DNA from: an uncultured Pseudomonadota bacterium
Lineage (GTDB): Bacteria; Pseudomonadota; Gammaproteobacteria; Methylococcales; Methylomonadaceae
Assembly (NCBI GenBank): GCA_903834465.1
Contig: CAILJB010000076.1
Span: 124,001 to 188,000 of the forward strand
Direction: 5' to 3'
Length of the DNA stretch: 64,000 nucleotides
Part shown: positions 7,378 through 62,746 of the stretch, piece by piece
Layout: every line of letters starts with the position of its first letter
How positions within the stretch are numbered: the first letter of the stretch is position 1
The notes under the pieces: model-generated
What the model was told of the DNA's origin: nothing
The model's input: the letters and a program-made list of their open reading frames with translations, nothing else
Database searches by the model: none
Made by a program: the position numbers and the translations under genes

Positions 7378-7380
7378 CTG

Positions 7381-8094
7381 TTATTTTTTCACATTTTCTG
7401 CATGTAAACCGCATTCTTTTTTCGCGCCATCTTCCCACCACCAACGTCCAACGCGCTCATGTTGATTTGGTAAAATCGGGCGCGTACAGGGTTCGCAACC
7501 AATACTGGTAAAACCATGTTGATGCAGCAGGTTGTAAGGCACTTGATAAGCCTCGATGTAATCCCACACCTGCGCTGAAGTCCAATTGAGTAGCGGATTA
7601 AATTTAATTAACGTATGTTCTGGTGTTGAAAATGCACTATCAATCTGTACTTCGGGAATCTCTTGGCGTGTATCTAAACTTTGGTCTTTGCGCTGCCCCG
7701 TAATCCACGCATCAACAGTCGTCAACTTACGGCGTAACGGTTCAACTTTCCGAATCCCGCAACATTCTGAATGCCCATCTTCATAAAAACTAAACAAGCC
7801 TTTAGTTTTCACAAACTCATCAAGTAAATCGCGGTTTGGGCTTAACACCTCGATGTCGATGCCATAATGTTTTCGTACTTGTTCAATGAAACGATAGGTT
7901 TCAGGATGTAAACGTCCTGTATCGAGGCAAAAAATAGAAATGTCTTTGCGAATATTCAATGCCAAATCAATTAGCACGACATCTTCTGCACCACTGAATG
8001 AAATAGCAATGTTGTTAAATTGCGCTAATGCTGCTTTTAAAATCACACGCGGATTTTTGCCGGCTAATTCAGTTTGTAAATTTTCAATATTCAT
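7381..8094 (-). CDS. cysH: Adenylyl-sulfate / phosphoadenylyl-sulfate reductase
   Basis: Reduces activated sulfate to sulfite for cysteine synthesis. 237 residues with the PP-loop [14 protein letters not shown] near the N-terminus and the C-terminal catalytic ECGLH. It carries both cysteine pairs of the iron-sulfur form, CC in [13 protein letters not shown] and CxxC in GCEPCTRP. These mark the [4Fe-4S] APS-reductase type rather than the E. coli PAPS-reductase type. It lies 3 nt downstream of gshA on the same strand, linking sulfate reduction with glutathione synthesis; the two are likely one operon. Confidence 0.93.
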
Positions 8095-8097
8095 AGC

Positions 8098-19827: not shown

Positions 19828-19905
19828 GATGAAGAAAACTTGATAATGTGCGAAGTTAACGGCAATTAGATGCCAGATTTTTATTATACGAATTAGGTTA
19901 TGTTA

Positions 19906-32456: not shown

Positions 32457-33041
32457 ATGTTTCAAAAACTCTATGACAAAACCCTGCGCTGGTCGGGGCA
32501 TCAACATGCGACACGCTATTTAGGCTTTGTCAGTTTTGCAGATTCGTCATTTTTTCCAATTACACCGCTGGTAATGTTAGTACCGATGGTGTTAGCGCGA
32601 CCTGATAAGGCATTTCGATTGGCATTTTTGACAACCATCATGTCGGCATTGGGCGCGGTACTTGGCTATAGCATTGGTTATTTTTTATTTGAAACAATTT
32701 CGCCTTGGTTACAAACGACGCATTATTGGAATGATTATTTATCAGCGAAAACGGAAGTCGATAAATGGGGAATTTGGGCGGTGTTAATTGGCGGTTTTTT
32801 ACCGATTCCGTACAAAATTTTCACCATCACTGCCGGTTCGTTGAACATGGCATTGTTGCCATTTTTATTGGTATCAACATTAGGACGCGGCACACGCTTT
32901 TTAGTTGTTGCGGCGTTAGTTAAATTCGGGGGCGAACGATTCGAAACCAAATTACGCGATTACAGTAATCACATTGGTTGGGTTTGTGTAGCAACAATTG
33001 CAATTGGTGTTGTGGTGTATCAGCAGCTAGTTAAAAGTTAA
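32457..33041 (+). CDS. yqaA: YqaA/DedA-family membrane protein
   Basis: 194 residues, inner membrane, with four to five hydrophobic helices. DedA-family signatures are FADSSFFPITPLVMLVPMVL, GAVLGYSIGYFLFE and GGFLPIPYKIFTITAG, whose Pro/Lys pair is typical of the YqaA branch. Members influence lipid scrambling and membrane potential. It is the third gene of surE-pcm-yqaA. It converges with and overlaps the EAL-protein gene by 4 nt at the stop codons. Symbol by family resemblance. Confidence 0.85.
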   Translation: MFQKLYDKTLRWSGHQHATRYLGFVSFADSSFFPITPLVMLVPMVLARPDKAFRLAFLTTIMSALGAVLGYSIGYFLFETISPWLQTTHYWNDYLSAKTEVDKWGIWAVLIGGFLPIPYKIFTITAGSLNMALLPFLLVSTLGRGTRFLVVAALVKFGGERFETKLRDYSNHIGWVCVATIAIGVVVYQQLVKS

Positions 33042-36000
33042 ATTGGTTTGCATTTAATCATCAATTTCACAAACTCATCAGCGGGAATCGGTTTGCTTTT
33101 AATATAACCTTGATAAATGTCACAACCTTTAAGTTGTAGAAAATTTAGTTGCTCGATAGTTTCCACGCCTTCGGCTAACACTTTAAAACCTAACGTTTGT
33201 CCCATTGAAATAATTGCCGAGGCAATTGCCATATCATCGGCATGATGTGGAATATCGTCAATAAAACTTTTATCAATTTTTAACACATCCAATGGAAAAC
33301 GTTTTAAATACGCCAACGATGAATAGCCCGTACCAAAATCATCAATAGCCAAATGTATGCCCAAAACGCGCAACTCATTCAAAATCTCGATGACCGCTTC
33401 TTGATGTTCCATCAAACCGCTTTCGGTTAATTCAAGTTCTAATTGTTCGGCAGGATAGTTAGTTTCAGCTAAAACCGTTGTGACCAATTCCACCATGTTA
33501 CAGCGTTTAAATTGTGACGGTGATACATTTACGGCTAATCGAATTGGAGGCAAACCGGCATCGAGCCATTCTTTACCTTGCCTACAAACCTCACGCAACA
33601 CCCATTCACCAATGCACATAATTAAGCCCGTTTCTTCGGCAATTGGAATAAATTTGTAGGGTGGAATTAAACCATTGTCAGGATCTTGCCAACGTACTAA
33701 GGCTTCAGCACCGACAATTTTACCACTTTCAATATCGACTTGTGCTTGATAGAACACGCGCAATTCACCTTGTTCAATACCACGTCGCAAACGTGCTTCT
33801 AAATCTAAACGTTCGCGTGCTGCTTGCGTTAAACTTTCCGAAAAATAAGCAAAACAGCCTCGTCCGTTATCTTTTGCTTGATAAAGTGCTATGTCTGCAT
33901 TATCCATCAATAATTCTGGCGTTCGACCGTGTTGCGGATAAAGCGTGATGCCGATACTCGCACCAATTCGCACGTCATTGCTTTGTGTGAGTTGGAACGG
34001 CGCAGTCAAATCACTCACGATTTCAGTTGCTACACGGGCGGCATCGTCTTGATTGGTAATATCTTCAAGTAACACCACAAACTCATCGCCACCCAGTCGC
34101 GCCACCATATCTGTTGTGCGTAAACGCGCCGTAATGCGTTCACCAACTTGTTTGAGTAATTCATCGCCTGCTAAATGCCCCAAGGTATCATTGACAGCTT
34201 TAAAGCGATCTAAATCCATCATCAGCACCGCAAGTTGCATATTTTCTCGATCACACATGGCAATACTGTGGTTTAGACGTTCTAATAATTTGCGACGATT
34301 AGCAAGTCCTGTCAGCGAATCGTAAAAGGCGAGATGTTTGATTTTTTCTTCCGCAATTTTGTATTCGGTAATATCGACCAGTGTTGCAACGTAATGCGTT
34401 GTTTGCCCATGCTCATCTTTTACGGCAGTGATAGTTAGCCATTGTGGGTTATTTTCGCCATTTTTATTTCGATTCCAAATTTCACCTTGCCATGAACCCG
34501 AACGCAGGAGTTTTATCCACATTTTTTGATAAAACTCTGCGTCCTGTAAATCTGATTTTAATAAACGGGGCGTTTGACCAATGACTTCTTCAGCACTGTA
34601 ACCGGTAATTGTACTAAAGGCTCGGTTGATGCGAATGATGGCATTATTGGCATCGGTGATAAGAATACCTTCTTGTGATTCAAAAGCAATCGAGGCAATG
34701 CGTTGTTCAGTTTCGAGTTGTTTGCGTTCGGTAATGTCTTCTTTGATGGCTAAATAATGGCTAATTTCTCCATTCGGTTGGCGCACTGGCGTAATTAACG
34801 CCAACTCAACGTACTCGCTACCGTCTTTACGTCGATTGATGAGTTCGCCTTTCCACATCTCACCTTTTCCGATGGTTTGCCATAACTGTTTGAATATCGC
34901 TTTAGGTGTTTTCCCCGAATTTAATATGTTTGGCGTGTGTCCTAATACTTCGTGTAAGTTGTATCCGGTTGTATTGGTAAAGGCCGCGTTTGCATATTCA
35001 ATTTTTGCATTCAAATCTGTAATTACAATCGCGCAGGGGTTTTGTTCAACGGCGAGAGAGAATTTACGCAATGAATCTTCGGCTTTTTTACGTTTAGTAA
35101 TATTTCGCGCAATGCCTAACACGCCAATAATATTGCCTTCATTATCGTGCAACGGTGTTTTTATCGTTTCCATAAAGGCTTGTCGCCCGTCATCGGCAAA
35201 CACGATATTTTCCTCGGTGACAAACACTTCATTTGTCGCCATGATTTTTTGATCGTATTTTCGGAATATATCCGCTAAGTCTTTGCTGACAAAATCATAA
35301 TCTGTTTTGCCAATAATATCGGCTTCTTTTGCACCAATATAACGTTCAAACATAGCGTTACATGATAAATACACACCGTCTTTATTTTTGAGCCAAATTA
35401 AATCGGGAATCGCTTTAATTAAGGCGCGTAAATGCGCTTCACTGTCATGCAAACGACTTTCATTTTCGTCGTGCGACGCTAGCAATCGTTGAAAACTGGC
35501 GGTCATGGCATTGAAATTGTCAGCCACCAACGCCAGTTCATCTTGCGTATCTAAAACGATTTGCGCTGATAAATCACCATCCGCAATTTTTTGTGCAGAA
35601 TGTACGAGTGAACGAATACTGCCAACGGTCGCATAATAAATACCGATAAAAAAATACTGGGCAATGATGAACAATAAAACCGCGCTACCAATGCTGAGCA
35701 ACAACGATTTTTTTGCCGCTCGAATACGTTGCTCAAATAACGATTCCAGAGACGGCAATAACGTTTCATAACTTTGTGAATAAATTTTGTTAATGACTCG
35801 CGCATTTAAGGAGAAAAAATCTTGGGGAGTGAGTTGGAAGCGTTTCGATAAAATGTCAGATTGGACAACGTTAGTGATTTGCAAAACACTTTTAAGCACT
35901 TCTTTTGCCACGTTATTCATCAACGGTTGCAGAGTGGGATTAGCCCGCCCGGTTTTTTCGAGGATAATATCGACAATTTTGAGACTTTGATTTAATTCGG

Positions 36001-36673
36001 CGATTAACACCAAAATATTATTTTTTTGATTTTCAGATAATTGTTTTGTGATTAACGAATTTTCGCTAAGCGATTGTAACTGCTCGAGCTTTTCTAATAC
36101 ATCGGGCAGTTTTTTAAGCACAATATCGGTCAAATAATGGGCATCCGTTTCTGCATCAAAAGTCAGAACGTAATAGTCCGCAAGCATTTCTTTGAATTGT
36201 TGCAATTGGTCAAGTAACTCAACATGTGCGGCAAAATTCTGTTCTGCTGACCACGTTTCACTTCTCAAACGTAAACGATGCCAATTTGCCTTAATACTGC
36301 GCCATTCTTTATTCAACAACGTGTTGTCATGATTTAACAATGTGTCATTGGGCAAACGCTGCTCAATGAGGGTCATTTTTTTTATCAATTCATTTTCAAC
36401 TTTTGTTTGTTCATCACGCATAAAACCATCATGCGTCAGTACACTTGCGCTGTGATATTCCTGAATGGATTCCATGGCTTGCGTGAGTGGTTTGATTAGC
36501 GTAATACCATGCAATTCGCGTTGTGTTGAGTTTATAACTTGTGAAAAATTACTGTATAAACTGACAAACATCACAACAATAGCAACGAGATAAATTAACC
36601 CTAACACCAAAAATTTTTTGGTATAACCGAGTTTATTCATCAACGTAATAGCAGGTAAAAACAAAGCTCTCAT
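33038..36673 (-). CDS. Membrane sensor with HAMP, three PAS, GGDEF and EAL domains
   Basis: 1211 residues from ATG 36673, which has AAAGGA about 8 nt upstream; the in-frame ATG at 36691 lacks one. Layout: TM1 (about 15-40), a long helical periplasmic sensor, TM2 (about 335-355), HAMP, three PAS/PAC modules (roughly 420-545, 550-670, 675-795), GGDEF (about 800-960) and EAL (about 975-1205). GGDEF is intact in ARLGGDEFVVLL. The EAL domain keeps GAEALVRW, NVSPSQF, ELTESGLM, AIDDFGTGYSSL and LKIDKSFI, so both cyclase and phosphodiesterase activities are possible. It makes or degrades c-di-GMP in response to unknown periplasmic and PAS signals. Confidence 0.93.
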   Translation of the reverse strand: MRALFLPAITLMNKLGYTKKFLVLGLIYLVAIVVMFVSLYSNFSQVINSTQRELHGITLIKPLTQAMESIQEYHSASVLTHDGFMRDEQTKVENELIKKMTLIEQRLPNDTLLNHDNTLLNKEWRSIKANWHRLRLRSETWSAEQNFAAHVELLDQLQQFKEMLADYYVLTFDAETDAHYLTDIVLKKLPDVLEKLEQLQSLSENSLITKQLSENQKNNILVLIAELNQSLKIVDIILEKTGRANPTLQPLMNNVAKEVLKSVLQITNVVQSDILSKRFQLTPQDFFSLNARVINKIYSQSYETLLPSLESLFEQRIRAAKKSLLLSIGSAVLLFIIAQYFFIGIYYATVGSIRSLVHSAQKIADGDLSAQIVLDTQDELALVADNFNAMTASFQRLLASHDENESRLHDSEAHLRALIKAIPDLIWLKNKDGVYLSCNAMFERYIGAKEADIIGKTDYDFVSKDLADIFRKYDQKIMATNEVFVTEENIVFADDGRQAFMETIKTPLHDNEGNIIGVLGIARNITKRKKAEDSLRKFSLAVEQNPCAIVITDLNAKIEYANAAFTNTTGYNLHEVLGHTPNILNSGKTPKAIFKQLWQTIGKGEMWKGELINRRKDGSEYVELALITPVRQPNGEISHYLAIKEDITERKQLETEQRIASIAFESQEGILITDANNAIIRINRAFSTITGYSAEEVIGQTPRLLKSDLQDAEFYQKMWIKLLRSGSWQGEIWNRNKNGENNPQWLTITAVKDEHGQTTHYVATLVDITEYKIAEEKIKHLAFYDSLTGLANRRKLLERLNHSIAMCDRENMQLAVLMMDLDRFKAVNDTLGHLAGDELLKQVGERITARLRTTDMVARLGGDEFVVLLEDITNQDDAARVATEIVSDLTAPFQLTQSNDVRIGASIGITLYPQHGRTPELLMDNADIALYQAKDNGRGCFAYFSESLTQAARERLDLEARLRRGIEQGELRVFYQAQVDIESGKIVGAEALVRWQDPDNGLIPPYKFIPIAEETGLIMCIGEWVLREVCRQGKEWLDAGLPPIRLAVNVSPSQFKRCNMVELVTTVLAETNYPAEQLELELTESGLMEHQEAVIEILNELRVLGIHLAIDDFGTGYSSLAYLKRFPLDVLKIDKSFIDDIPHHADDMAIASAIISMGQTLGFKVLAEGVETIEQLNFLQLKGCDIYQGYIKSKPIPADEFVKLMIKCKPI

Positions 36674-36747
36674 GCAGTCATCCTTTAACACATTGTTATT
36701 ATTTTTAACATTTCCTAATGATAACAGAAGCCAATTTCGTCGCGCAT

Positions 36748-46933: not shown

Positions 46934-48076
46934 ATGTTTAGACTTAGCCAATACATGCGCGAAGTAATTGCGCCCACGCCGCTCAAACCTACGCGCAAAC
47001 CAGTTGCGCCGGTGGTGATTTGGAATTTAATCCGTCGTTGTAATTTGACGTGTCAGCATTGTTACACCACGTCAGCAGACAAAGATTTTCCAAACGAACT
47101 CACAACGCCGCAAATTTATACGGTGATGGATGATTTAAAAGAGTTTAAAGTACCGGTGTTGATTTTATCGGGTGGCGAACCGTTGTTGCATCCAGATATT
47201 TTCGCAATTTCGCAACGTGCCAAAGACATGGGTTTTTATGTTGCCTTGTCGAGTAATGGGACAAAAATATCAGCTGAAAATATCGACCAAATTGCCGCCA
47301 TCAATTATTCCTATATTGGTGTGAGTTTGGACGGTATTCAAGACACGCACGATGCCTTTCGCCGTTCGAAAGGTTCGTTTAATCAAGCGTTGCGCGGTAT
47401 TGAATTGTGTTTAGCAAAAGGCATTAAAGTAGGCATTCGCTTTACCTTGACGCAATCGAACGCACATGATTTTCCGGCAATGTTGCAATTGATGGATGAT
47501 TACAACATCGATAAATTTTATTTATCGCATTTGAATTATGGTGGACGCGGTAATAAAAATCGTGGCGATGACGCACATTTCACGATGACACGCGAGGCGA
47601 TGGATTTGTTGTTCGATACTTGTTATCGCTGGGAATTGGAAGGCAAAGAACGCGAATTTGTGACCGGTAATAATGATGCCGATGCGGTGTATTTTCTGTA
47701 TTGGGTACGCGCTCGATTTCCTGAAAAAGTCGCGCACATTCAAGCGAAATTGCAGCAATGGGGCGGTAATGCGTCGGGCGTGAATGTGGCAAATATTGAT
47801 AACACTGGCAATGTGCATCCGGATACGTTTTGGTGGCATTACAATTTAGGTAATGTCAAAGAGCGTCCGTTTTCTGAAATTTGGCAAGATACCAGCGACC
47901 CGCTTATGGCTGGTTTAAAAAGTTCGCCTCGTCCGCTCGAAGGGCGTTGTAAAACCTGTCATTATCAATCAATTTGCAATGGCAATACGCGGGTGCGTGC
48001 CGCGCAAACGACGGGTAATTATTGGGCGGAGGATTCGGGGTGTTATTTGGGGGAGGGTGAAATAACTGAAAAATGA
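46934..48076 (+). CDS. nirJ: Heme d1 biosynthesis radical SAM protein NirJ
   Basis: 380 residues. Radical SAM motif CNLTCQHCYTT follows the highly conserved PVVIWNLIRRC; the start MFRLSQYMREVIAPTPLKPT is the NirJ-specific N-terminus. The C-terminal SPASM-like cysteines lie in CKTCHYQSICNGNTRVRA and DSGCYLGE. NirJ replaces propionate side chains during synthesis of heme d1, the cofactor of cytochrome cd1 nitrite reductase. No nirS or other nir genes are in the window, so it is separated from the rest of the pathway or reused in another heme modification. It starts 2 nt after the GT39 gene. Confidence 0.9.
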   Translation: MFRLSQYMREVIAPTPLKPTRKPVAPVVIWNLIRRCNLTCQHCYTTSADKDFPNELTTPQIYTVMDDLKEFKVPVLILSGGEPLLHPDIFAISQRAKDMGFYVALSSNGTKISAENIDQIAAINYSYIGVSLDGIQDTHDAFRRSKGSFNQALRGIELCLAKGIKVGIRFTLTQSNAHDFPAMLQLMDDYNIDKFYLSHLNYGGRGNKNRGDDAHFTMTREAMDLLFDTCYRWELEGKEREFVTGNNDADAVYFLYWVRARFPEKVAHIQAKLQQWGGNASGVNVANIDNTGNVHPDTFWWHYNLGNVKERPFSEIWQDTSDPLMAGLKSSPRPLEGRCKTCHYQSICNGNTRVRAAQTTGNYWAEDSGCYLGEGEITEK

Positions 48077-49575
48077 ACAATTTTATCCAAATAGAACTTT
48101 TTGATTCTGAACTTCCAAAAGAAAATTTAAAAATTAAAGTTGATGATGTTGATTGGCAGAAAAAATTAGGCTGTTCAATTCTTACACGTCAAGAAATCTC
48201 TGTGCTAATTTCTAAACATAAAACTGAAAATTATTACATTTATGTACTGTGGAAAATGTACACAGAAAAGCCAATTCCGTTTTATGTGGGCAAAGGTCAT
48301 TTTGACCGTGTTATCAAACACGAAATGCCCAGTGACAAGCAAAACAAAATCAAAAATAACATCATCAACAAGCATCAAAGATTAGGTTTTAATGTTGGCT
48401 ATTCAATTCTGAGTTGGCATAAAGAAGAACAAGACGCGCTTAATCGAGAAGCAGAGTTAATTTCACAACTTGGTCGGGCTAATTTAAAAAAAGGAATCTT
48501 GGTTAATAAAACAGATGGTGGCGATGGAACTCGCGGACATTTATCACCTAAACGTGGCGAAAGTTATAGTGCAAAACCTGTTTATACTGTATTCAATGGA
48601 ATATCAACTCATTTTGCTTGTGTTGCAGATGCTGCCGAAGCTCTTGGTATTTCAGGTGGCGCGTTATCAGGACGCATCAGAAATGGTTGGATTGGTTACT
48701 ATTACGAAGATGAAGGGCAACAACCAACAATTAGCACACATCAAGGTTTTTATCGAAAGGTCGTTCATACGCCTGATGGCGTTTTTGAATCACTCGCTGA
48801 AGCAGGACGGCAACTCAATGTTTCACATAAAAAAATACACAAAAGAATAAAGTACGGTTGGGTAGGTTATTACTACGTTGATGAAGGTCAACGTCCACGC
48901 CGCCGACCTGAAAAAGCAGTTGAAATTGCAGGTATTAAATTTGAGAGCCATAAAGAAGCGGCTCAAACCTTTGGTATTTCAGTTGGTTCTATTGCAAAGC
49001 GATTAGGAAGCTCTAATTACCCAGATTGGATAGACTTATCAGGAACTATTAAAAAAGAAAGTAAAAAATCCAGAATACAAAGTGAAAGAAAACCTTTTAC
49101 TGCTATTTGGATTGGCGAAATAAAATATAGTTCGCTAGTTGAAGCAGAAAAAGCAACAGGAATTAAACACGGAACGCTCGTAGCCAGAGCAAAAAGTTCA
49201 AATTATCCCGATATAAGAATTGACGGTGTGGTTAAGGAACAACGCTCTGCAAAAATGGGAAAAATTGCTGTTTCGGTAACAATTGATGGTGTTGAATATC
49301 AAACTTTATCAGATGCGGCGCGAGCAATTGGAATTGATATAAATACGGTTAAACAAAGATGCCGCAGCACATCATTTCCAAATTACATTTCAAAAGATGT
49401 CGATCTACAAAAGAAACCACCTAAAAGTGGATTACCTTATTTAGGGAGAATTGTTGTCGATGGTGTTAAATATCGTTCTATTAAAGCGGCGCATGAAGCT
49501 GTTGGTATTCAGCGAGCAAAATTAAAAAAGATGGCTTTAGATGAGAATATGCCAAATGTTTATTTTGAAATTTGA
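48073..49575 (+). CDS. GIY-YIG nuclease-like protein with six NUMOD-like repeats
   Basis: 500 residues. A GIY-YIG nuclease domain covers about 53-155: YYIYVLW, FYVGKGHFDRVIKH with the conserved Arg, REAELISQLG with the metal-binding Glu, and LVNKTDGGDGTRG. Six repeats of 45-60 residues follow, starting near 166, 230, 282, 342, 399 and 457. Each is a short beta-hairpin with an F/YxS or F/YxT-like turn followed by a helix-turn-helix (EAAQTFGISVGSIAKRL style). Repeats 1-2 share GW-GYYY-DEGQ; 3-6 share S/N-YP/FP-ends. Such tails direct DNA binding in homing endonucleases. It overlaps nirJ by 4 nt and is more AT-rich than its neighbours, suggesting acquisition by transfer. Confidence 0.82.
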   Translation: MNNFIQIELFDSELPKENLKIKVDDVDWQKKLGCSILTRQEISVLISKHKTENYYIYVLWKMYTEKPIPFYVGKGHFDRVIKHEMPSDKQNKIKNNIINKHQRLGFNVGYSILSWHKEEQDALNREAELISQLGRANLKKGILVNKTDGGDGTRGHLSPKRGESYSAKPVYTVFNGISTHFACVADAAEALGISGGALSGRIRNGWIGYYYEDEGQQPTISTHQGFYRKVVHTPDGVFESLAEAGRQLNVSHKKIHKRIKYGWVGYYYVDEGQRPRRRPEKAVEIAGIKFESHKEAAQTFGISVGSIAKRLGSSNYPDWIDLSGTIKKESKKSRIQSERKPFTAIWIGEIKYSSLVEAEKATGIKHGTLVARAKSSNYPDIRIDGVVKEQRSAKMGKIAVSVTIDGVEYQTLSDAARAIGIDINTVKQRCRSTSFPNYISKDVDLQKKPPKSGLPYLGRIVVDGVKYRSIKAAHEAVGIQRAKLKKMALDENMPNVYFEI

Positions 49576-52929: not shown

Positions 52930-54018
52930 TCAATGTTGTTGACGATAACGATAATACGCCGCACATGCACCTTCGGAAGAAACCATTGTTGCGCCAAACG
53001 GATGTTCTGGCGTACAAGTTGTTCCGAATTCGGCGCATTGTGCGGGTTTGATTAAACCTTGTAATACTTCACCACTGCGACATGCCGCAGGTTCTTGTGT
53101 GTTAATGGTGCCAACGGAAAAACGTTGCTCGGCATTCCATTCATCATAATCCGAATTCAACGCTAAACCACTTTCAGCAATTTCACCTAATCCGCGCCAG
53201 TTTCGATTTACCACATTAAATACTTTTTGCATTAAGGCTTGCGCGGGCAAATTGCCTTTTTCTTTAACGACGCGGGCATATTGGTTTTCAACGGCAAAAC
53301 GTTTTTCTTCTAATTGTTTCACGCACAAATACAAACCCTGCAAAATATCGACCGGCTCAAAACCTGTGACAACAATAGGCATTTTGTATTGTTCACAAAT
53401 AGGTAAATATTCATGAAAACCCATAATCGAACAAACGTGACCAGCACCTAAAAAACCTTGCACGCGATGATTAGGTGTCGCTAATAACGCTTGCATCACA
53501 GGTGGTACGCGCACATGGCAAATCAATAATGAAAAATTTTTGAGTTGACGCAATTTTGCTTGATAAGCGGCTAATGCGGTCGTCGGAGCAGTGGTTTCAA
53601 AACCAACACCAAAGAAAACCACTTCTTTATTAGGTGATTGTTCGGCAATCGTCAACGCATCTAATGGCGAATACACAATGCGAATATCTGCGCCTTGGGC
53701 TTTTAAACTGAGCAAATCGTGTTGTGAACCCGGTACACGCAACATATCGCCAAACGAACAAAAAATCACATTCGATTGTGCGGCAATGGCTAAGGCTTTA
53801 TCAATATAAGCCAGTGGCGTAACACAAACAGGGCAACCAGGGCCGTGAATTAACTCGATTTCATCGGTAAGCAATTGGTCAATGCCGTATTTAATAATAC
53901 TGTGTGTTTGACCGCCGCACACTTCCATAATACGCCAACGTTGTGTGGTCAACGATTTAATTGCACTGACCCAATGTTGTGCGAGTTGTGGATTACGAAA
54001 CGCTTGCATGTAATTCAT
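52930..54018 (-). CDS. hypD: Hydrogenase maturation protein HypD
   Basis: Builds the Fe(CN)2CO unit of [NiFe] hydrogenases on a HypCD complex. 362 residues. Conserved [55 protein letters not shown] and [10 protein letters not shown] are present, and the C-terminal [4Fe-4S] ligands are in [20 protein letters not shown]. It overlaps hypC by 4 nt. HypA, HypB, HypE and the hydrogenase structural genes are outside the window. Confidence 0.96.
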
Positions 54019-54278: not shown

Positions 54279-55565
54279 TTAATTCGCACAATCAAACCAA
54301 CAAACTTGATTGCGTCCAGATTCTTTAGCGGTATACATTGCACTATCCGCGCGGTTCAATACCATTTCACTATCGGTATCATCTATAGATAATAACGCGG
54401 CACCAATGCTAACTGTGATGTGAACCATGCCTTTAGGGTGAGAAATAGCGATGTTGGCAACTTCTTTACGCAGACGTTCCGCCATGATGAGTGCTTCATT
54501 GCGTCCTGTACTAGGTAATAAAACGGCGAATTCTTCACCCCCTAAACGGGCGGGAACATCAATATTTCGGGAATTATGTCTCATCACGTTTGCAAATTGT
54601 TTTAACACCTCATCGCCCGTCGCGTGTCCGTAATTGTCGTTAATATTTTTAAAAAAATCTAAATCTAACATGAGCAACACCGCCGAACCACCTAGACGAG
54701 AAATACGGTCTGATTCTTGAGTTAATCGATCTAAAAAAACGCGGCGATTAAACAAACCCGTTAACGGATCGGTATTTGCCAATTTATGCAGCATTTCTTC
54801 TAACGATTTACGTTCGCTGATATTTTCTTTTATACCAATAAAATTGACAATTTCCCCACGACCATTTTTAACCGGCGCAATACTCAATTCTTCGTGATAT
54901 AAATCGCCATTTTTATGTTTATTGATAACTTCGCCGCGCCAATGTTTTCCTGCAAGCAAATTTCGCCACATATCTTGATAAAACAATTCATTTTGTTTAC
55001 CCGATTTTATCAATTCACTAGGCTTACTTCCCATCACTTCTTCTAAACTGTAACCCGTTAAACGACTAAAGGCAGGATTTGCCCATTTGATATTAGCTTC
55101 GGTGTCGGTAATGATGATGCTATTTGCCGCCGCTTCCAATGCGGCAACCAATAACTTGTTATGTGTTTCCATTTCAACGCGAAGTAACGCATAACGAATC
55201 ACTCGCGCTAAACCATCGAATCCAAAATCACCTTTTACCATATAATCTGTTGCGCCTGCTTTTAATGCAGATAACGCAAAATCCACATCGGCACGTCCCG
55301 TAAGAACAACAATGGGAATATCACCTGCCATTTGTCGTCCAATTTCTACGGTTTCTAATCCTTCTGAGTCTGGCAGTGATAAATCTAACAACATGACATC
55401 AAAACAAGAATGTCTTAATTGATGCTCGGCAATTGCTAACGATTCTACCCAAGTGATTTCGAAACTCACATCACGGTTTTGCTTTAACACGGTTTTGACT
55501 AAATACGCATCTCCTGTTTCATCTTCAACCAGTAACACACGAATAGGCGACTTCGCAGAACTCAT
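54279..55565 (-). CDS. Response regulator with PAS and GGDEF domains (diguanylate cyclase)
   Basis: 428 residues from ATG 55565. REC domain with acidic residues VEDETGDAY and the phospho-acceptor in VMLLDLSLPD, then PAS/PAC (about 135-255; AANSIIITDTEANIKWANPA), then GGDEF (about 265-425). The catalytic loop ARLGGEEFAVLLPS is intact (GGEEF), so c-di-GMP synthesis is expected. The RxxD inhibitory site region reads MAERLRKEV and is not obvious. Its ATG overlaps the stop of the single-domain regulator by 4 nt. It is likely the output of the two upstream histidine kinases. Confidence 0.93.
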   Translation of the reverse strand: MSSAKSPIRVLLVEDETGDAYLVKTVLKQNRDVSFEITWVESLAIAEHQLRHSCFDVMLLDLSLPDSEGLETVEIGRQMAGDIPIVVLTGRADVDFALSALKAGATDYMVKGDFGFDGLARVIRYALLRVEMETHNKLLVAALEAAANSIIITDTEANIKWANPAFSRLTGYSLEEVMGSKPSELIKSGKQNELFYQDMWRNLLAGKHWRGEVINKHKNGDLYHEELSIAPVKNGRGEIVNFIGIKENISERKSLEEMLHKLANTDPLTGLFNRRVFLDRLTQESDRISRLGGSAVLLMLDLDFFKNINDNYGHATGDEVLKQFANVMRHNSRNIDVPARLGGEEFAVLLPSTGRNEALIMAERLRKEVANIAISHPKGMVHITVSIGAALLSIDDTDSEMVLNRADSAMYTAKESGRNQVCWFDCAN

Positions 55566-56011
55566 ATTTTGTGTCCTTGCGGTAAACGCACAAGCGTGAA
55601 CCAATATTCATTTAATTGATGAATCGCGGAAATAAACTGTGACATATCGACAGGTTTTGTAATGTAACTGGCGGCACCTAATTGGTAAGAGCGCACCACG
55701 TCATTCTCAACATCTGAGGTTGTCAATACAACAACGGGGATGTCATTTAACAATGCGTTAGCTTTCATTGCTTCTAAAAATTCACAACCATTCATGCGCG
55801 GCATATTTAAATCAAGAAAAATTAAATCAGGGCGTGGCGCGTTGGCATATTTTCCAACTTTTTGTAAAAAATCTAATCCTTCACTGCCATCGATGACATG
55901 ATGTAGATTCGCCATGATTTTGCCTTCTTTTAACGCCATTTTTACCAAATACGCATCAGCAGGTTCATCTTCTAACAATAAAATTTCAACTGCGTGGGGG
56001 TGTTCAATCAT
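55562..56011 (-). CDS. Single-domain response regulator (Rcp1-like)
   Basis: 149 residues, REC only. The acidic cluster LLEDEPADAYLVKMAL and LIFLDLNMPRMNG, with TTSD and ITKPVD for the Thr and Lys positions, match the Rcp1-type receivers that pair with phytochrome-like and PAS kinases. It has no output domain, so it may pass phosphate on or act by protein contact. It sits between the CHASE kinase gene and the REC-PAS-GGDEF gene, overlapping the latter by 4 nt. Confidence 0.92.
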   Translation of the reverse strand: MIEHPHAVEILLLEDEPADAYLVKMALKEGKIMANLHHVIDGSEGLDFLQKVGKYANAPRPDLIFLDLNMPRMNGCEFLEAMKANALLNDIPVVVLTTSDVENDVVRSYQLGAASYITKPVDMSQFISAIHQLNEYWFTLVRLPQGHKI

Positions 56012-56042: not shown

Positions 56043-57839
56043 TTAATTCCCGGTCGGTAAATCAAATACAACCGTTGTGCCACCGCCATTAGTTTCTTTC
56101 AAACTCACTGAGCCGCCGCAACTTTCAATAACTCGCCGGACAATAGCTAAACCAATGCCGGTCGATTCTTGATTATCGTTGACTTGTAATCGTTCAAATA
56201 CCAAAAAAACGCGCTCACGGTATTGCGTTGGAATTCCTACGCCATTGTCTTCGACATAATAACGAATTCGTTTTCCTTTGAGTTCGCCATAAATGCGTAT
56301 TTTGGGAATACGATTGGGGACACGATAACGCAGGGCATTATCAAGTAATATATCGAAAATGTCATATAATCGTGGTCGGTCAATCGTTACTGTTGGCAGG
56401 GCAACGTAATCAATCTGAGCATAAACTTCAAGAATCAACGGGGCATGATGTTCCACGACTTTTGCAATGATTTCAGTAACTGAAACGGATTCAACAGTTG
56501 CTCTGGGTTGTGTTGCGGCAAGGTAAAGTTGAATGTCTCGAACTAACGCGCGTTGGCGCAATGCACTTTGTTCAATGAAATGCAATGTAATTGCCGCATC
56601 TTCATTAGGTGCGAAGGTAGTTATTAGCTCGTGCTGTAATCGTTGCACAAAACTTACTAACCGTCGCGCGGGTTCTTGTAAATGATGAGCAGAAATATTG
56701 GTGAATTGTAATAAATCGGCATTTGTTAATGCCAGTTTTTCTTCACTTTTGCGTAATTGCGTGGTTAATTCAAATGCTATTTTAAGTGCATTCGTTCGCA
56801 TTAAAAAGTAAGTGCGTAGCAAGAAAAATAATAACAAACTAATAAACACGCCTGCACTGGTTGTAATCCAGACTTTGCCGTAATCCACATTTTTTTCTAC
56901 GCCTGTAAATTCTTCAAAACGCAGTGTCCATAACGTCCCGAAAAGCGCCATTTGTGTTTCTAAACTAAAAAGTGGCGCAGGATTATTTAATAAATGATTT
57001 TCGCTTTGGTATAACAAATTTTCGGGTTGTATTTTATCGCCATCATAAATGTGTAAATGCAGATGAGAGATAGTCTCAATATTTCCATCAGAAACAATAT
57101 TTTTGAATAAATCCGTCATGCGAAACGGACTGTAAACCCAACCAAATAAAGCCGCTCGCCGTTGTTCACGCGTATCAATTGGTTTGTTTTTTTGATACAC
57201 CGGCGCATACATTAACGTTCCTGCTTGTACATTTGTCGATTCTTCTTGAAGTAGCGTGACTTTTCCCGACAAACTCACATTTTGACTATCGACCGCATAA
57301 TCCATTGCCGCACGACGAATGGGTTCTGAATACATATCGTAACCAAAGGCGCGTAAATTACGCCCGCTAAAAGGTTCGATGTAAATGATAGAGGTATAAG
57401 CATCGCGTTTGCCTTCTGGTTTCACGCGATAATCTGGGAAACCCGATTGGCGCAAACTATTTTCATGCGCTTTGAGTTGTTCAGGTTTAATCCACAGTGA
57501 AAAGCCTAACGCTTGAATGCCATTAAAATGTTGGTCAAAACTTAACCGCCGGACATAAACTCGCCATTCTTTGCGTGTCACGTCTTCGGAGGCATCAAAC
57601 ATCGCCGCACCACTTAATAAAATTTGTTTTTGTGCAGCAAGTCGGGCTTGTATTTTTAATTTAACTTCTTCGCAACGTAATTCAAATTTCTGGCGTTCAT
57701 GCAATTCAATGTCTGTTTTGACGCGATAACTGACGAATAGCGTTAATAATAAACCTAACAATAATACCAACCATGAAAGTATAAGAAGGCTCTTTTCGCG
57801 TACTTTTTTATAAAACGTTTCAGTGTTGGATTCATTCAT
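56043..57839 (-). CDS. CHASE-domain sensor histidine kinase
   Basis: 598 residues from ATG 57839; an in-frame ATG 39 nt earlier would overlap the upstream gene. TM1 about 18-40, periplasmic CHASE domain about 75-290 (GAAMFDASEDVTRKEWRVYV, GIQALGFSLWI, PFSGRNLRAFGYDMYSEPIR), TM2 about 325-345, a coiled linker, HisKA with ISAHHLQEPARRL, and HATPase with NALRYRVPNR, VEDNGVGIPTQY and STGIGLAIVRR. CHASE is the sensor of plant cytokinin receptors and of many bacterial kinases; the ligand here is unknown. It follows the ETR1-like kinase by 4 nt and precedes the response regulators. Confidence 0.92.
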   Translation of the reverse strand: MNESNTETFYKKVREKSLLILSWLVLLLGLLLTLFVSYRVKTDIELHERQKFELRCEEVKLKIQARLAAQKQILLSGAAMFDASEDVTRKEWRVYVRRLSFDQHFNGIQALGFSLWIKPEQLKAHENSLRQSGFPDYRVKPEGKRDAYTSIIYIEPFSGRNLRAFGYDMYSEPIRRAAMDYAVDSQNVSLSGKVTLLQEESTNVQAGTLMYAPVYQKNKPIDTREQRRAALFGWVYSPFRMTDLFKNIVSDGNIETISHLHLHIYDGDKIQPENLLYQSENHLLNNPAPLFSLETQMALFGTLWTLRFEEFTGVEKNVDYGKVWITTSAGVFISLLLFFLLRTYFLMRTNALKIAFELTTQLRKSEEKLALTNADLLQFTNISAHHLQEPARRLVSFVQRLQHELITTFAPNEDAAITLHFIEQSALRQRALVRDIQLYLAATQPRATVESVSVTEIIAKVVEHHAPLILEVYAQIDYVALPTVTIDRPRLYDIFDILLDNALRYRVPNRIPKIRIYGELKGKRIRYYVEDNGVGIPTQYRERVFLVFERLQVNDNQESTGIGLAIVRRVIESCGGSVSLKETNGGGTTVVFDLPTGN

Positions 57840-57843
57840 TGCT

Positions 57844-60477
57844 CTAATCCATTGTGTTTTTGATAATAGGCAACTCAAACCAAAAGACGCAACCTAGCCC
57901 TTCACCTTTTGATTCTACGCCAATTTTTCCATCATGATGTTCGACGATTTTTCGACATAATGCTAAACCTACGCCCGTGCCTTCAAAATGACTGCGTGCT
58001 TGTAGACGAGAAAAAACTTTAAATAATCTATCTATTTGCGTTGGGTTAATGCCGATGCCTGAATCGCGCACGGTGACTTTGAAAAAGTTGTTGGCTGTGA
58101 CCGTTGCACAAACTTCGATTTGAGGCGGTTTATTTTCTTCGTGATATTTAATGGCATTACCAATCAAATTTTGTAACAGGCGTGTTAATTCATCACGACT
58201 CGCCACCAAATCCACCCAATCGCCCGATATTTCAACATGTCCGTTACTGGTATCTAATTCGGGTTTTAGAAATAAAAGAGCTTCATCGATAGCTGCATGA
58301 CTAGAAATAAGGGTAAAAGGTTCGGTTCGTCGTCCCACCCGTGAATAATCCAGCAACGATAAAATCATCGCATCCATGCGTTTTGCGCCATCAATGGCAA
58401 AATCGAGAAATTGACGTGTTTCTTCGTCTAATTGCTTGGCTAATGCCGTTTCAATCAATGATAAATAACTTGCCACCATCCGTAACGGTTGTCGCATATC
58501 ATGTGAAACGGCGTAAGCAAATTGTTCTAAATCTGCGTTAGAACGTTGCAGTTCTAATTCGATTTGTTTCCGGTCGGTAATATCTTGAACAATACCTCGA
58601 AAAAAACTGGGGATGCCTTCGGATGTAAACTCGGCACGTCCCACTGAACGCATCCAACGTATTTCGCCGTCGGCAAGAATAGTTCGATATTCCACATCAT
58701 ATTTTTCCCTATTTTTAATATGACTTTGTGTTGCATCAATAATGAATTGTCTATCATCAGGATGCACGATGGCTAAAAAATCTTCCCATGTTGGATTTTC
58801 TATCACGGGAAATTTTACGAGATCAAAGATGGTGCGAGACCAGATTTGTTTGTTATGGATTAAATCTGCTTCCCACGAACCAATGCCAGCATAGTTTTGG
58901 CTGAGATTAAGCCGCTCTTCACTGGCTTTTAATTTATTTTCCATGCGTTTTCGCTCAGTGATATTGCGCGATAACACGATAAAACGTGGCTCTTGTTCAT
59001 TTTCAGTTAATTTGAACGCAACGGACAATTCGAACCAATGCTGCTCTCCCTCCAGCTCTAATTTTATTTGTTTACCCGTTGACCAACCTTGTTTTTGAGC
59101 TTCTTGTAATGCTAAAAAACAAATTGCCGTGGCATCTGGCGGCAAAATAGCAGAAATTTTTTTCCCTAAAAGTTGTTCTGCTCGCAAGGCAAATGTTTCA
59201 CTGCGATGTGCATAGTAATCATGGAAACGCCCGTTTAAATCCAGTTCAAAAAGCACATCAGGAATCGCATTTAACGTGGCTTGTAATTGATTTTTTGTGT
59301 TGAGTACATCGAGTTCTATTTGTTTACGTTCGGTGATGTCTGAAACAAAACCATGCCACAAAATAGAGCCGTCGTCTTCTAGTTCGGGTAACGCATTTCC
59401 CAGTAACCAGCATTCTGTACCATCTGCAAATTTAAGACGATATTCATCACGCCACGGACTTAATTCCCTTGCTGACGTTTTAATTCCTTCAAGATGATGC
59501 ACTAAATCATCAGGATGAACGTTGGCAAAAACGGCGGCAGCATCTTCTCGAACTTCTTCAGGATTGATGCGATAAATTTTGCGTAACACTTCACTGGCAT
59601 AAGGAAGATAAAAACTGCCATCTGTACGCATACAAAATTGAAAAACTAAACTAGGTAGCTGATTGGCAATTTTATGTAACCGTTCAGAGGTTTCTTGTTG
59701 CGCTAATTCACTCTGTTTAAGTTCGGTCACATCGGTCGAAATGCCAGACAGCGCGTAAATCTTGCCGTTTTCATCTCTTAACGGTTCTTTTGTCGTTAAA
59801 AAAACATGCTCTTCGCCGTTTTTTAAATGATATTTACTGATAACTTCTACACGTTCGCCATGTTCCAGAACCCGTCGATCGTAATATCGAGTTTTTTGAA
59901 CAGTTTCTTCATCAAAAAAATCACTATCAAGACAACCAATAATTTCAGTAGATGGTAAACCGAATAATTCTGCAACCATTCGATTTGAATATTGATAGCG
60001 ATAATTAAGATCCTTGGTATATGCCGCCACGGGTGCATTATCCAAAATAGAAGATAGTTTGTATTTTTCCTTATTTGTTTTTTCTTGTTCAGCAAGTAGT
60101 TCAGCAGTGGTTGGTAATTTCAGCGCAAGCGGAATAATCTTTAACATTGCAATGGCTGTGATGACAGAAATAATTGCCGTAAAAACTTTAAGATAACCAT
60201 CAAGCCAATACAGCGGAATCCAAATCAAAATTGCAGACATTAAGTGGGTTGTGCCACAGGCAACAATAAATAATGCCCCCATCGTAAATAGCCAAGCATA
60301 AGGTAAATCTTTGCGTTTACGAATGAAGTACAAAAGACTGAGTGGAATAGAGTAATAAGACAACGTAATCAACACGTCAGAAACAACGTGTAACCATAAT
60401 AAAATGGGGTTCCAGCTTAAACAGAAACCATGTGGAATGAAGCTGTTGATGCCGAAAAAATCAATCAATATTTGCAT
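57844..60477 (-). CDS. Histidine kinase with ETR1-like ethylene-binding membrane domain and four PAS domains
   Basis: 877 residues. Three N-terminal membrane helices (about 24-125) match the ethylene-binding domain of plant ETR1 and cyanobacterial Etr1. Asp34, Tyr41, Ile44, Pro45, Cys74 and His78 line up, at a constant offset of nine, with ETR1 Asp25, Tyr32, Ile35, Pro36, Cys65 and His69; the last two bind copper. Four PAS/PAC modules follow (about 140-260, 265-390, 395-510, 515-640). Next come HisKA (AVSHDMRQPLRMVASYL) and HATPase (NLIGNAIKYHEENKPP, VRDSGIGINPTQ, GTGVGLALCRK). It is the first kinase of the block between hypF and hypC. Ethylene as ligand is inference from the residues. Confidence 0.9.
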   Translation of the reverse strand: MQILIDFFGINSFIPHGFCLSWNPILLWLHVVSDVLITLSYYSIPLSLLYFIRKRKDLPYAWLFTMGALFIVACGTTHLMSAILIWIPLYWLDGYLKVFTAIISVITAIAMLKIIPLALKLPTTAELLAEQEKTNKEKYKLSSILDNAPVAAYTKDLNYRYQYSNRMVAELFGLPSTEIIGCLDSDFFDEETVQKTRYYDRRVLEHGERVEVISKYHLKNGEEHVFLTTKEPLRDENGKIYALSGISTDVTELKQSELAQQETSERLHKIANQLPSLVFQFCMRTDGSFYLPYASEVLRKIYRINPEEVREDAAAVFANVHPDDLVHHLEGIKTSARELSPWRDEYRLKFADGTECWLLGNALPELEDDGSILWHGFVSDITERKQIELDVLNTKNQLQATLNAIPDVLFELDLNGRFHDYYAHRSETFALRAEQLLGKKISAILPPDATAICFLALQEAQKQGWSTGKQIKLELEGEQHWFELSVAFKLTENEQEPRFIVLSRNITERKRMENKLKASEERLNLSQNYAGIGSWEADLIHNKQIWSRTIFDLVKFPVIENPTWEDFLAIVHPDDRQFIIDATQSHIKNREKYDVEYRTILADGEIRWMRSVGRAEFTSEGIPSFFRGIVQDITDRKQIELELQRSNADLEQFAYAVSHDMRQPLRMVASYLSLIETALAKQLDEETRQFLDFAIDGAKRMDAMILSLLDYSRVGRRTEPFTLISSHAAIDEALLFLKPELDTSNGHVEISGDWVDLVASRDELTRLLQNLIGNAIKYHEENKPPQIEVCATVTANNFFKVTVRDSGIGINPTQIDRLFKVFSRLQARSHFEGTGVGLALCRKIVEHHDGKIGVESKGEGLGCVFWFELPIIKNTMD

Positions 60478-60508: not shown

Positions 60509-62746
60509 TCAGATAGGAAAAGACGCGGCGTACAGCTGCCCCAATGCTAAACCACCGTCATTAGGCGGTACGTTTTGATGACAGTGTACAGTAAAACCTG
60601 CATTCGTTAATTCAGTAAATATGTTTTCTGTTAGCCGCGCATTTTGAAAACAACCACCGCTTAAAACAACAATTTTCTGATTCGCACGTTGAGCAATTGC
60701 AACGCTGATTTTTGCCAGCGTGTTGTGAAATTTTGCGGCGCAGTAATTTGTTGGTTGCGTTGTTTTATCGAGTAAAAGCTGTTTTATCATGGGTTGCCAA
60801 TCAATCACCATCGAATCACCGATTTTAAAATCATAATATTCTTTTGTTTCATTGGTTGTAGCGCAATTTTCCAACAACATCGCAGCATGACCTTCGTATT
60901 CATTAACGTGACAAACCCCAAGTAAACTCGCCACCGCATCAAATAAACGTCCGACGCTGCTAGTTTTTGGACAATTCAATTGTTTGGCTAACGCGATTTT
61001 TAATAAGGCTTGTTCACTTATCGAAAAATCTAAATCTAAATCTGAAAAAGCTTTTTCGCCATAAATTTCATACAACAAACCTAATGCAACGCGGCGCGGT
61101 TCTTGAATGGCTTTAGAACCGCCGACTAATGGGAAAGTACGAAAATGGGCAAAACGCTCAAAACCTTTTTCGTGAATCGATAAAAATTCTCCCCCCCAAA
61201 TTGTGCCGTCTGTTCCAAAACCTGAACCATCCCAAACAATGCCTAACGCTGGCGGTTGTAAACCATTTTCTGCCATGCAAGACAGCGCATGAGCGTAATG
61301 ATGTTGAACGGCGTGTTTTTCGATATTTAAATTCGCCGCAAATTGACTACTCACATAATCCGAATGCAAATCGTGCATCACTCGGACAGGTTTAACGGCG
61401 TAAGCATTTTGTAAATCGGCAAGCGTTTTTTGAAATTGTTGGCGCGTCGCTTCGGAATCTAAATCGCCTAAATGTTGACTTAAAATGGCTTGGTTTTTGT
61501 AACTAATTGCGACGGTATTTTTCATTTGTCCACCAACGGCGAACGTATTTGGAGAAGCGTTTTTTAACGTAATTGGCAACGGTGCATAACCTCTAGCACG
61601 ACGTAAAACAGTGATTTTTTTGTTAATGACGCGAACAATTGAATCATCTAATGGTCGCAAAATTGGGCGATTATGAACTAAAAAATAATCTGCAATGCTG
61701 GCGAGATTTTTTAACGCTTGCGTGTCATCAATACAAATCGGTTCGCTAAAACGATTGCCACTCGTGGCAACTAATGGAAAACCAAAATCATGTAACAACA
61801 AATGGTGCAATGGCGAATAGGCGAGCATCACACCCAGCAAAGATTGTTGTGGCGCGACAGATTCGAAAGTTGTAGAAGATTCAAGCCGTTTCATTAAAAC
61901 AATCGGGGCGGCAGGCGAGGTGAGGGCAGTTTGTTCGAGTTCGCTTATTTTACAGAGTTTTTGCGCGGCGGCTAAATTTTCAACCACCAGAGCAAATGGT
62001 TTCATGGGGCGATTTTTTCGTTTACGCAAACGTTCTACCGCTTCTCGATTCGTGGCATCGACCAATAATTGAAAGCCACCAATGCCTTTCATCGCCACAA
62101 TTTTTCCAGCTTTTAATTGTTCAACTGCCATTTTTAAAGCCGCGTCTTTTTCAGCTAAAACATATCCTGATTCGTCCCAAAAACTCAGTTGCACACCACA
62201 CGTTGGACAAGCAAGCGTTTGAGCATGAAAACGGCGATTTTCCATCGATTGATATTCATGTTTACAATCAGCACACAAAATAAATTCTGCCATGCTGGTA
62301 TTCGCGCGGTCGTAAGGTTGGCGCGTGGTGATGCTGTAACGTGCGCCACAACTACAACAACTGGTAAATGGATAACGATAATAACGACTTTGTGAATTAA
62401 AAATATCTTTGACACATTCGGGACACGTTGCAATATCGGGCAGAGCAAATGCGGATGTTGGTGCGTCGTTAATGCTGGTTAAGATTTCAAATCGTTCAAA
62501 ATTTACCAGTGTTTTGGCAGTGCGTTTTAAGTCACTAATTTCAGCAAAAGGCGGTAATTCTGTTTGGAGTGCGTTGAGGAATTTTTGTTGCGATGCGTCT
62601 GAACCTTCGATTGAAATTAAAACACCTAAAGACGTGTTTTTAATCCAACCTTTTTGCTCAAAGCGCGTCGCTAAACGTGCTACGAATGGACGAAATCCAA
62701 CGCCTTGCACCATGCCTTGGATTTCGAGTTGTGAATGAACGCGCAT
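60509..62746 (-). CDS. hypF: Carbamoyltransferase HypF
   Basis: Makes the thiocarbamate precursor of the cyanide ligands of [NiFe] hydrogenase from carbamoyl phosphate. 745 residues: acylphosphatase domain (GMVQGVGFRPFVARLA), zinc fingers (CPECVKDIF, CCSCGARYSI, CADCKHEY, CPTCG), a YrdC-like domain (LKAGKIVAMKGIGGFQLLVD, RKNRPMKPFALV, SPAAPIVLMKR) and a C-terminal Kae1-like domain (VQHHYAHALSCMAENGL, GIVWDGSGFGTDGTIWGGEF, VVLSGGCFQNARL). All parts are intact. The ATG follows the cysS stop directly (TAAATG), so translation is coupled. hypC and hypD lie about 6 kb further along the same strand. Confidence 0.97.
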   Translation of the reverse strand: MRVHSQLEIQGMVQGVGFRPFVARLATRFEQKGWIKNTSLGVLISIEGSDASQQKFLNALQTELPPFAEISDLKRTAKTLVNFERFEILTSINDAPTSAFALPDIATCPECVKDIFNSQSRYYRYPFTSCCSCGARYSITTRQPYDRANTSMAEFILCADCKHEYQSMENRRFHAQTLACPTCGVQLSFWDESGYVLAEKDAALKMAVEQLKAGKIVAMKGIGGFQLLVDATNREAVERLRKRKNRPMKPFALVVENLAAAQKLCKISELEQTALTSPAAPIVLMKRLESSTTFESVAPQQSLLGVMLAYSPLHHLLLHDFGFPLVATSGNRFSEPICIDDTQALKNLASIADYFLVHNRPILRPLDDSIVRVINKKITVLRRARGYAPLPITLKNASPNTFAVGGQMKNTVAISYKNQAILSQHLGDLDSEATRQQFQKTLADLQNAYAVKPVRVMHDLHSDYVSSQFAANLNIEKHAVQHHYAHALSCMAENGLQPPALGIVWDGSGFGTDGTIWGGEFLSIHEKGFERFAHFRTFPLVGGSKAIQEPRRVALGLLYEIYGEKAFSDLDLDFSISEQALLKIALAKQLNCPKTSSVGRLFDAVASLLGVCHVNEYEGHAAMLLENCATTNETKEYYDFKIGDSMVIDWQPMIKQLLLDKTTQPTNYCAAKFHNTLAKISVAIAQRANQKIVVLSGGCFQNARLTENIFTELTNAGFTVHCHQNVPPNDGGLALGQLYAASFPI

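Follow-up and report, generated by a model that had tools for sequence, protein, structure and literature searches.

Ethylene receptors of the plant type are already known from bacterial histidine kinases. Ethylene binding in this family requires seven residues (PMC11819568, PMC6944256; here and below, statements about cited papers refer to the accessible parts of their text), and cyanobacteria carrying such receptors respond to ethylene from 1-8 nL per L (PMC6682694). In Azospirillum, ethylene lowers biofilm formation and the level of cyclic di-GMP (c-di-GMP), and the pathway linking them is called unknown (PMC11819568). A CHASE-domain kinase, PcrK, has been described as a cytokinin receptor (PMC7072313). 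Methane monooxygenase (MMO) co-oxidises ethylene to epoxyethane, and ethylene inhibits growth as well as methane oxidation, the latter both in soils and in a methanotroph culture, with strong inhibition at 3-50 ppmv in several forest soils (PMC11507031). A different kind of sensor, a MEDS-domain regulator, was proposed there for the epoxide genes of the studied strain; the equivalent gene clusters in other methanotrophs are said to lack it (PMC11507031). Here we describe a further member of the ethylene-receptor kinase family, encoded in a 64,000-nucleotide stretch (the window) of contig CAILJB010000076.1 from an uncultured bacterium of the Methylomonadaceae, together with the four-gene cassette in which it lies. 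Our favoured reading, to which we give a probability of roughly 0.62, is that it is a Cu(I)/ethylene sensor kinase that sets c-di-GMP in a methane oxidiser.

The kinase gene is a single open frame of 877 amino acids on the minus strand (60477..57844), a strand left unnamed in the initial annotation, which was made from the sequence alone. A Pfam profile search placed ETR1_N (PF25487) at residues 26-121 with E = 1.3e-35 and 121.9 bits against a cut-off of 27. The ethylene-binding domain as a whole comprises residues 1-131 with three predicted membrane helices (60085..60477, minus strand; Pfam ETR1_N, AlphaFold2 and a 46-row alignment). It is followed on the same strand by four PAS domains at about residues 140-640 (58558..60060), recognised as two PAS_4 and two PAS_3 stretches by Pfam and as four DITERK-like PAS ends by eye, and by an intact HisKA and HATPase_c kinase core (57844..58530; Pfam 8.1e-12 and 1.1e-24, respectively) with H, N and G boxes, the H-box being SHDMRQP at residue 658. 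With the 46-row alignment as input, AlphaFold2 yielded three long helices (24-54, 61-84 and 90-119; mean pLDDT 84.6), and the domain presumably inserts in the membrane. Helix 1 carries Asp34, Tyr41, Ile44 and Pro45, and helix 2 carries Ile71, Cys74 and His78, with Cys74 and His78 one turn apart; a topology that separates these two residues, which would have spoken against the proposed site, does not occur. The family search, residue conservation and structure prediction thus agree with the initial description of an ETR1-type, three-helix ethylene-binding domain on a histidine kinase with four PAS domains. A sequence search of the PDB with the domain matched no chain at E up to 1, and a Foldseek search with the domain model gave a best match of E = 1.0, that is, no solved relative. 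Plasmid records were also searched; among the matches listed were PAS kinases below 60% identity, which were not used.

Residues Asp25, Tyr32, Ile35, Pro36, Ile62, Cys65 and His69 of Arabidopsis ETR1 match D34, Y41, I44, P45, I71, C74 and H78 of the kinase, each nine positions on from its ETR1 counterpart and all encoded within 60244..60378 (minus strand, by sequence comparison). We take these to be the required seven. The initial annotation had listed six needed residues at this offset (Asp34, Tyr41, Ile44, Pro45, Cys74 and His78), and all six are indeed present, but it overlooked the seventh, Ile71. Its opinion that the match goes beyond chance is borne out by the ETR1_N score and by the family being matched in 0 of 14 control genomes. 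Among 97 translated matches that cover the site and span proteobacteria, cyanobacteria and planctomycetes, conservation is complete (97) for Cys74 and His78, 96 for Asp34 and Pro45, 95 for Tyr41 and Ile71, and 91 for Ile44. The window itself is one of the 97, a single place enters twice (L002/L003; L denotes loci and G genomes), and some genomes are present in two collections; partial matches are omitted for L002 and L003 (their first halves) and for L067 (two matches). In the 46-row domain alignment, P45, C74 and H78 are invariant and D34, Y41, I44 and I71 are kept at 90% or more. We also noticed that Cys19, in a PHGxC motif shortly before helix 1, is invariant in this alignment, where the later-starting rows do not cover the position.

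The gene order on the minus strand is hypF, the ethylene-type kinase, a CHASE-domain kinase, a single-domain response regulator, a REC-PAS-GGDEF diguanylate cyclase and hypD. The CHASE-domain histidine kinase (56043..57878; Pfam CHASE 1.4e-66, HATPase_c 1.4e-20; H-box AHHLQEP) has a listed frame that opens with TTG, and its first ATG, at 57839, lies 4 bases past the stop of the ethylene-type kinase. The regulator, Rcp1-like by eye, follows after 31 bases (55562..56011; Pfam Response_reg 8.6e-21). The cyclase (54279..55604; Pfam GGDEF 9e-49, Response_reg 1.2e-16, PAS_9 8.2e-17) also has a listed frame opening with TTG, and its first ATG, at 55565, overlaps the regulator stop as ATGA; it has a GGEEF active site and an RxxD inhibitory site (RNID-VPARL-GGEEF from residue 346 of the listed frame). 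The kinase had initially been described as next to diguanylate-cyclase genes. A cyclase does belong to the cassette, but there is only one, and two genes stand between it and the kinase. The hydrogenase maturation gene hypF (60509..62746; Pfam HypF_C_2, zf-HYPF) lies upstream with a gap of 31 bases to the ethylene-type kinase, and hypD (52930..54018; Pfam HypD 6.6e-154) lies 260 bases downstream of the cyclase. The solved CHASE domain nearest to that of the cassette is PDB 6k62 (5.6e-16), which we take to be PcrK. The CHASE kinase is probably a second input, with its CHASE domain a candidate cytokinin binder.

To see how far this arrangement recurs, 64 matched loci were compared for cassette content. 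An orthologous kinase core (at least 69% identity) is present in 13 of them, and in 11 of the 13 a CHASE kinase comes next (L004, L006, L007, L008, L010, L012, L016, L022, L039, L040 and L051; L010 ends at a contig end, L040 was recognised through its kinase part only, and L008 has an additional kinase in between). The regulator is next in 10 of these 11 loci, and the same cyclase (at least 64%) is found in seven, the L004 cyclase being cut by a contig end. The cassette recurs in Methylobacter, including the cultured strain Methylobacter tundripaludum SV96 (L012). Among the orthologs the PAS region is variable, and the ethylene domain and the kinase are alike.

A natural fusion joins the two ends of the cassette. 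In L064 (8001-10088), from a Methylobacter metagenome-assembled genome (MAG), a 695-amino-acid protein consists of the ethylene domain, three PAS domains and GGDEF, fused in frame with the binding residues, GGEEF and RxxD retained. The DNA alignment of L064 with L039 runs from 7365 to 9206 and then jumps to 14708, so that L064 misses about 5.5 kb. Relative to L039 and L012, this deletion takes out what remains of the ethylene-type kinase as well as the CHASE kinase, the regulator and the cyclase's receiver domain; its joint falls at a six-base word common to both sides, and both flanks still match. In the cyclase tree, the L064 cyclase sits with that of L039 (97/87) within the cassette clade (99/98). 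Three further loci join the ethylene domain to GGDEF (L026) or to GGDEF-EAL (L033 and L038), and their cyclases fall outside the cassette clade, so the coupling of the ethylene domain to c-di-GMP probably arose more than once. Such proteins are a minority: GGDEF occurs in 4 of the 48 scanned ethylene-domain proteins (with EAL too in two of the four), and HisKA in 44 of the 48. This census comprised 47 loci and the window, some of the loci being assigned no finer than 'uncultured proteobacterium'; it left out the loci cut by contig ends (L014, L031, L048), short ones (L005, L032, L037) and those not taken as methanotroph (L044, L054-L057, L060-L063, L065-L067). The window itself holds another GGDEF-type gene about 21 kb away, outside the cassette: the product of 33038-36691, found as a tblastn match, has 1217 amino acids and by eye a HAMP-PAS-GGDEF-EAL order, and its GGDEF part lies near those of the L033 and L038 proteins in the cyclase tree.

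We propose that the three-helix membrane domain would hold Cu(I) by Cys74 and His78 and bind ethylene, as judged from its homology to ETR1 and to the receptors SynEtr1 and AzoEtr1. Binding would alter kinase activity via the four PAS domains, and the phosphoryl group would pass to both receiver proteins encoded in the cassette (the single-domain regulator and the REC-PAS-GGDEF cyclase), which the CHASE kinase might supply as well. Ethylene would thereby set the c-di-GMP level, a step suggested by the operon structure, its conservation and the natural fusion. The output here would then be c-di-GMP; phototaxis, the cyanobacterial output, is not implied. The likely use would be the detection of ethylene, which is both co-substrate and poison for MMO, with biofilm, motility or metabolism adjusted in response, and we hypothesise that the cell would benefit from a sensor that acts at levels far lower than the toxic ones.

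Several observations weigh against this proposal. Computation establishes the domain with its residues, the recurring cassette, the fusion and the over-representation described below, whereas we infer from sequence that the kinase binds ethylene and signals. The cassette is also not uniform: the cyclase was not found in the DNA examined of L006 and L007, that of L008 is just 37% alike, and the orthologous kinases of L013 and L046 are without a CHASE kinase. In the congener G063 (L120:13900-15770), the same cassette lies in synteny between hypF and hypD, with an orthologous kinase that has a short single-helix N-terminus and no ethylene domain. The cassette can therefore run without ethylene input and has inputs other than ethylene; since the Methylobacter cassettes have the ethylene domain, the most parsimonious account is that G063 lost it. 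The fusion comes from one MAG, and no second independent case was found in the 121 genomes of the window's family; the one full-length match, 100% identical, is in G083, which its coordinates show to be the genome of L064, and in G110, an assembly of 3 contigs, the fusion halves are unjoined and about 5.4 kb apart.

To place the receptor in its host, we examined the distribution of the domain. The closest named loci are assigned to Methylococcales and Methylobacter, some of them no further than 'uncultured proteobacterium', and the window's own genome (G000, 2.82 Mb) has two PF02461 genes (subunit A of particulate methane monooxygenase, pMMO, or ammonia monooxygenase, AMO); the host is therefore taken as a gammaproteobacterial methanotroph. 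Its family is represented by 121 genomes, of which 105 have at least one PF02461 gene. ETR1_N exceeds the cut-off in 71 of the 121, compared with 0 of the 14 controls, and at E <= 0.001 it is matched in 22 of 29 genera; G110 alone has five matches over the cut-off. In an even draw across the phylum, 28 of 398 genomes exceed the cut-off, and 18 of 213 genera are matched at the same E value. Both genome counts include the window's own genome; with it removed, the Fisher p for family versus phylum draw is 1e-31, kinship being ignored. PF02461 exceeds its cut-off in three of the 398 genomes, namely the window's own, G222 and G307, and the genomes of the latter two have no ETR1_N match. The genus of G307, outside the window's class and taken as an alphaproteobacterial genus with many methanotrophs, has the domain in 14 of 39 genomes, and PF02461 is not universal there (G554 is without it). 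Across the family of G307, the domain occurs in 7 of 11 genomes with PF02461 compared with 20 of 138 without (p = 6e-4; two 149-genome draws with matching labels, taken as the same genomes). We conclude that the ethylene domain is over-represented in the sampled methanotroph families. In a domain tree of 51 hand-picked loci (L107 was dropped for coverage), L109 and L110, from the genus of G307, stand beside another out-of-class family and apart from the window clade, so the two classes seem to share no recent single source of the domain.

Additional copies of the domain were noticed in the family. On contig C45 of the window's own genome, a second ETR1_N gene (L098:6987-8814), by eye a receiver-bearing hybrid kinase, has Tyr at the Ile44 position and a frame broken near the N-terminus; the Methylomonas loci L053 and L058 have the same Tyr with the frame open. 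Small genomes of genus g21 (G021, G047, G069 and G101) give weak ETR1_N matches (21-30 bits), of which three lie in frames about 790 amino acids long, perhaps representing a diverged version of the domain; stronger matches also occur in this genus, in G101 and G087.

A wider proposal, that methane oxidisers of two proteobacterial classes independently expanded plant-type ethylene receptors for sensing the competing substrate and toxic-epoxide precursor of MMO, wired to c-di-GMP via the four-gene cassette or single-chain cyclases, is put forward only tentatively, and we think it doubtful. The abundance of receptors could instead reflect a richness in sensor kinases or life near plants and have nothing to do with MMO, an explanation that has a real chance of being right, if short of an even one. 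Plant-associated proteobacteria are likely carriers of such receptors (PMC11819568), and the copies of the window's own family are spread over several separate clades of the domain tree. The alphaproteobacterial signal also weakens when counted by genus, to 2 of 3 versus 13 of 40, which proves nothing and counts against the favoured reading, as does the failure of a link to AMO-bearing bacteria in general: that link was looked for and not found, the family of G222, probably ammonia oxidisers, having the domain in just 5 of 81 genomes with no excess (G222 is the sole genome of that family tested for PF02461). Against the abundance explanation stands the strength of the excess in the window's family, by genomes and by genera alike, although these counts are not scaled to the total number of kinases.

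Returning to the favoured reading of a Cu(I)/ethylene sensor, the same site might sense copper itself instead of ethylene, or else a different small unsaturated gas, for example acetylene. Methanotrophs need copper for pMMO, so a domain that holds Cu(I) in the membrane could monitor the copper supply, and both the strictness of Cys74 and His78, kept in every one of the 97 matches, and the excess of the domain in families with pMMO would fit. However, the residues tied to ethylene binding in ETR1 that are not copper ligands (Asp34, Tyr41, Ile44, Pro45 and Ile71) are kept almost equally well, and for characterised cyanobacterial receptors carrying this site the estimated Kd for ethylene is 127-335 nL per L (PMC6682694); we regard a sensor of copper or another gas as unlikely. 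The domain might also be a relic, a membrane anchor and dimerising helix bundle above PAS domains that read the real signals. The variable PAS region beside a constant ethylene domain and kinase could be taken this way, and G063 manages its cassette with no such domain. A mere anchor, however, would need no set of seven residues, and this set is kept in 91 to 97 of the 97 matches, across three bacterial groups; we regard a relic as improbable.

The position between hypF and hypD raises the further thought that the operon regulates hydrogenase, and the window's own genome does have a NiFe hydrogenase large subunit. In the window and in G063 the cassette stands between the two hyp genes, and hypF precedes it in L004/G081. 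In contrast, the Methylobacter cassettes L012, L016 and L039 have no hypF or hypD match in their 16.4 kb loci, the congener G119 has no hypF match within 7 kb upstream of the kinase, and around hypD of G040 and G096 the cassette kinase and regulator were not found in the stretches examined. (G081, G119 and G063 are the source genomes of the loci L004, L006 and L011, respectively, and therefore not independent cases.) Operon sharing with hyp genes looks lineage-specific, and since hyp neighbours occur only in the window, L004/G081 and G063, control of hydrogenase is very improbable.

Two other genes of the window were noticed by eye. The product of 48073-49575 has a GIY-YIG nuclease-like start followed by repeated NUMOD-like segments and is possibly a free-standing homing-type endonuclease, and 19900-21588 has the appearance of a secreted metalloprotease with RTX-type calcium-binding repeats.

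What goes beyond the known receptors is the methanotroph host with its excess of the domain, the recurring four-gene cassette and the in-frame fusion to the cassette cyclase. Our literature search found no report of ethylene receptors in methanotrophs, with subscription papers thinly covered, so that an earlier mention is possible. In the accessible main text of the study of ethylene in methanotrophs, which uses 'ethylene' 142 times, 'receptor' and 'histidine kinase' are both absent (PMC11507031). Both the cassette and the fusion suggest how an ethylene receptor could connect directly to c-di-GMP, the link called unknown in Azospirillum (PMC11819568), and the single-chain protein of the L064 type leaves this coupling open to test in one protein. 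Were methanotrophs to sense ethylene, regulated behaviour might account for some of the influence that the gas has on the methane sink; should the wider proposal hold, ethylene in soils and lakes would be a regulatory signal on the methane sink, beyond enzyme inhibition.

Compared with Arabidopsis ETR1, the window kinase shares the seven-residue copper/ethylene site, the three helices and the kinase family. ETR1 has GAF where the window kinase has PAS, and the plant output runs via CTR1. AzoEtr1 of Azospirillum brasilense is likewise a proteobacterial kinase with the same N-terminal site; it binds ethylene and has a single-domain response regulator gene just downstream, as in the cassette (PMC11819568). 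It differs in its length of 525 amino acids with one PAS domain and in its plant-associated host, which is not a methanotroph, and a neighbouring CHASE kinase or cyclase is not mentioned in the accessible part of that report (PMC11819568). PcrK of Xanthomonas campestris is a CHASE-domain kinase that acts through PcrR, a regulator with phosphodiesterase activity (PMC7072313), whereas in the window the CHASE kinase is paired with an ethylene-type kinase and a cyclase. SynEtr1 of Synechocystis and GeiEtr1/2 of Geitlerinema have the same domain as the window kinase; SynEtr1 differs in being also a photoreceptor that affects phototaxis, with no CHASE kinase mentioned in the accessible text, and in Geitlerinema GeiEtr2 is grouped with a gene that encodes a cyclase domain (PMC6682694). 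The proposed route from ethylene to c-di-GMP agrees with both this Geitlerinema gene and the drop in c-di-GMP seen in Azospirillum.

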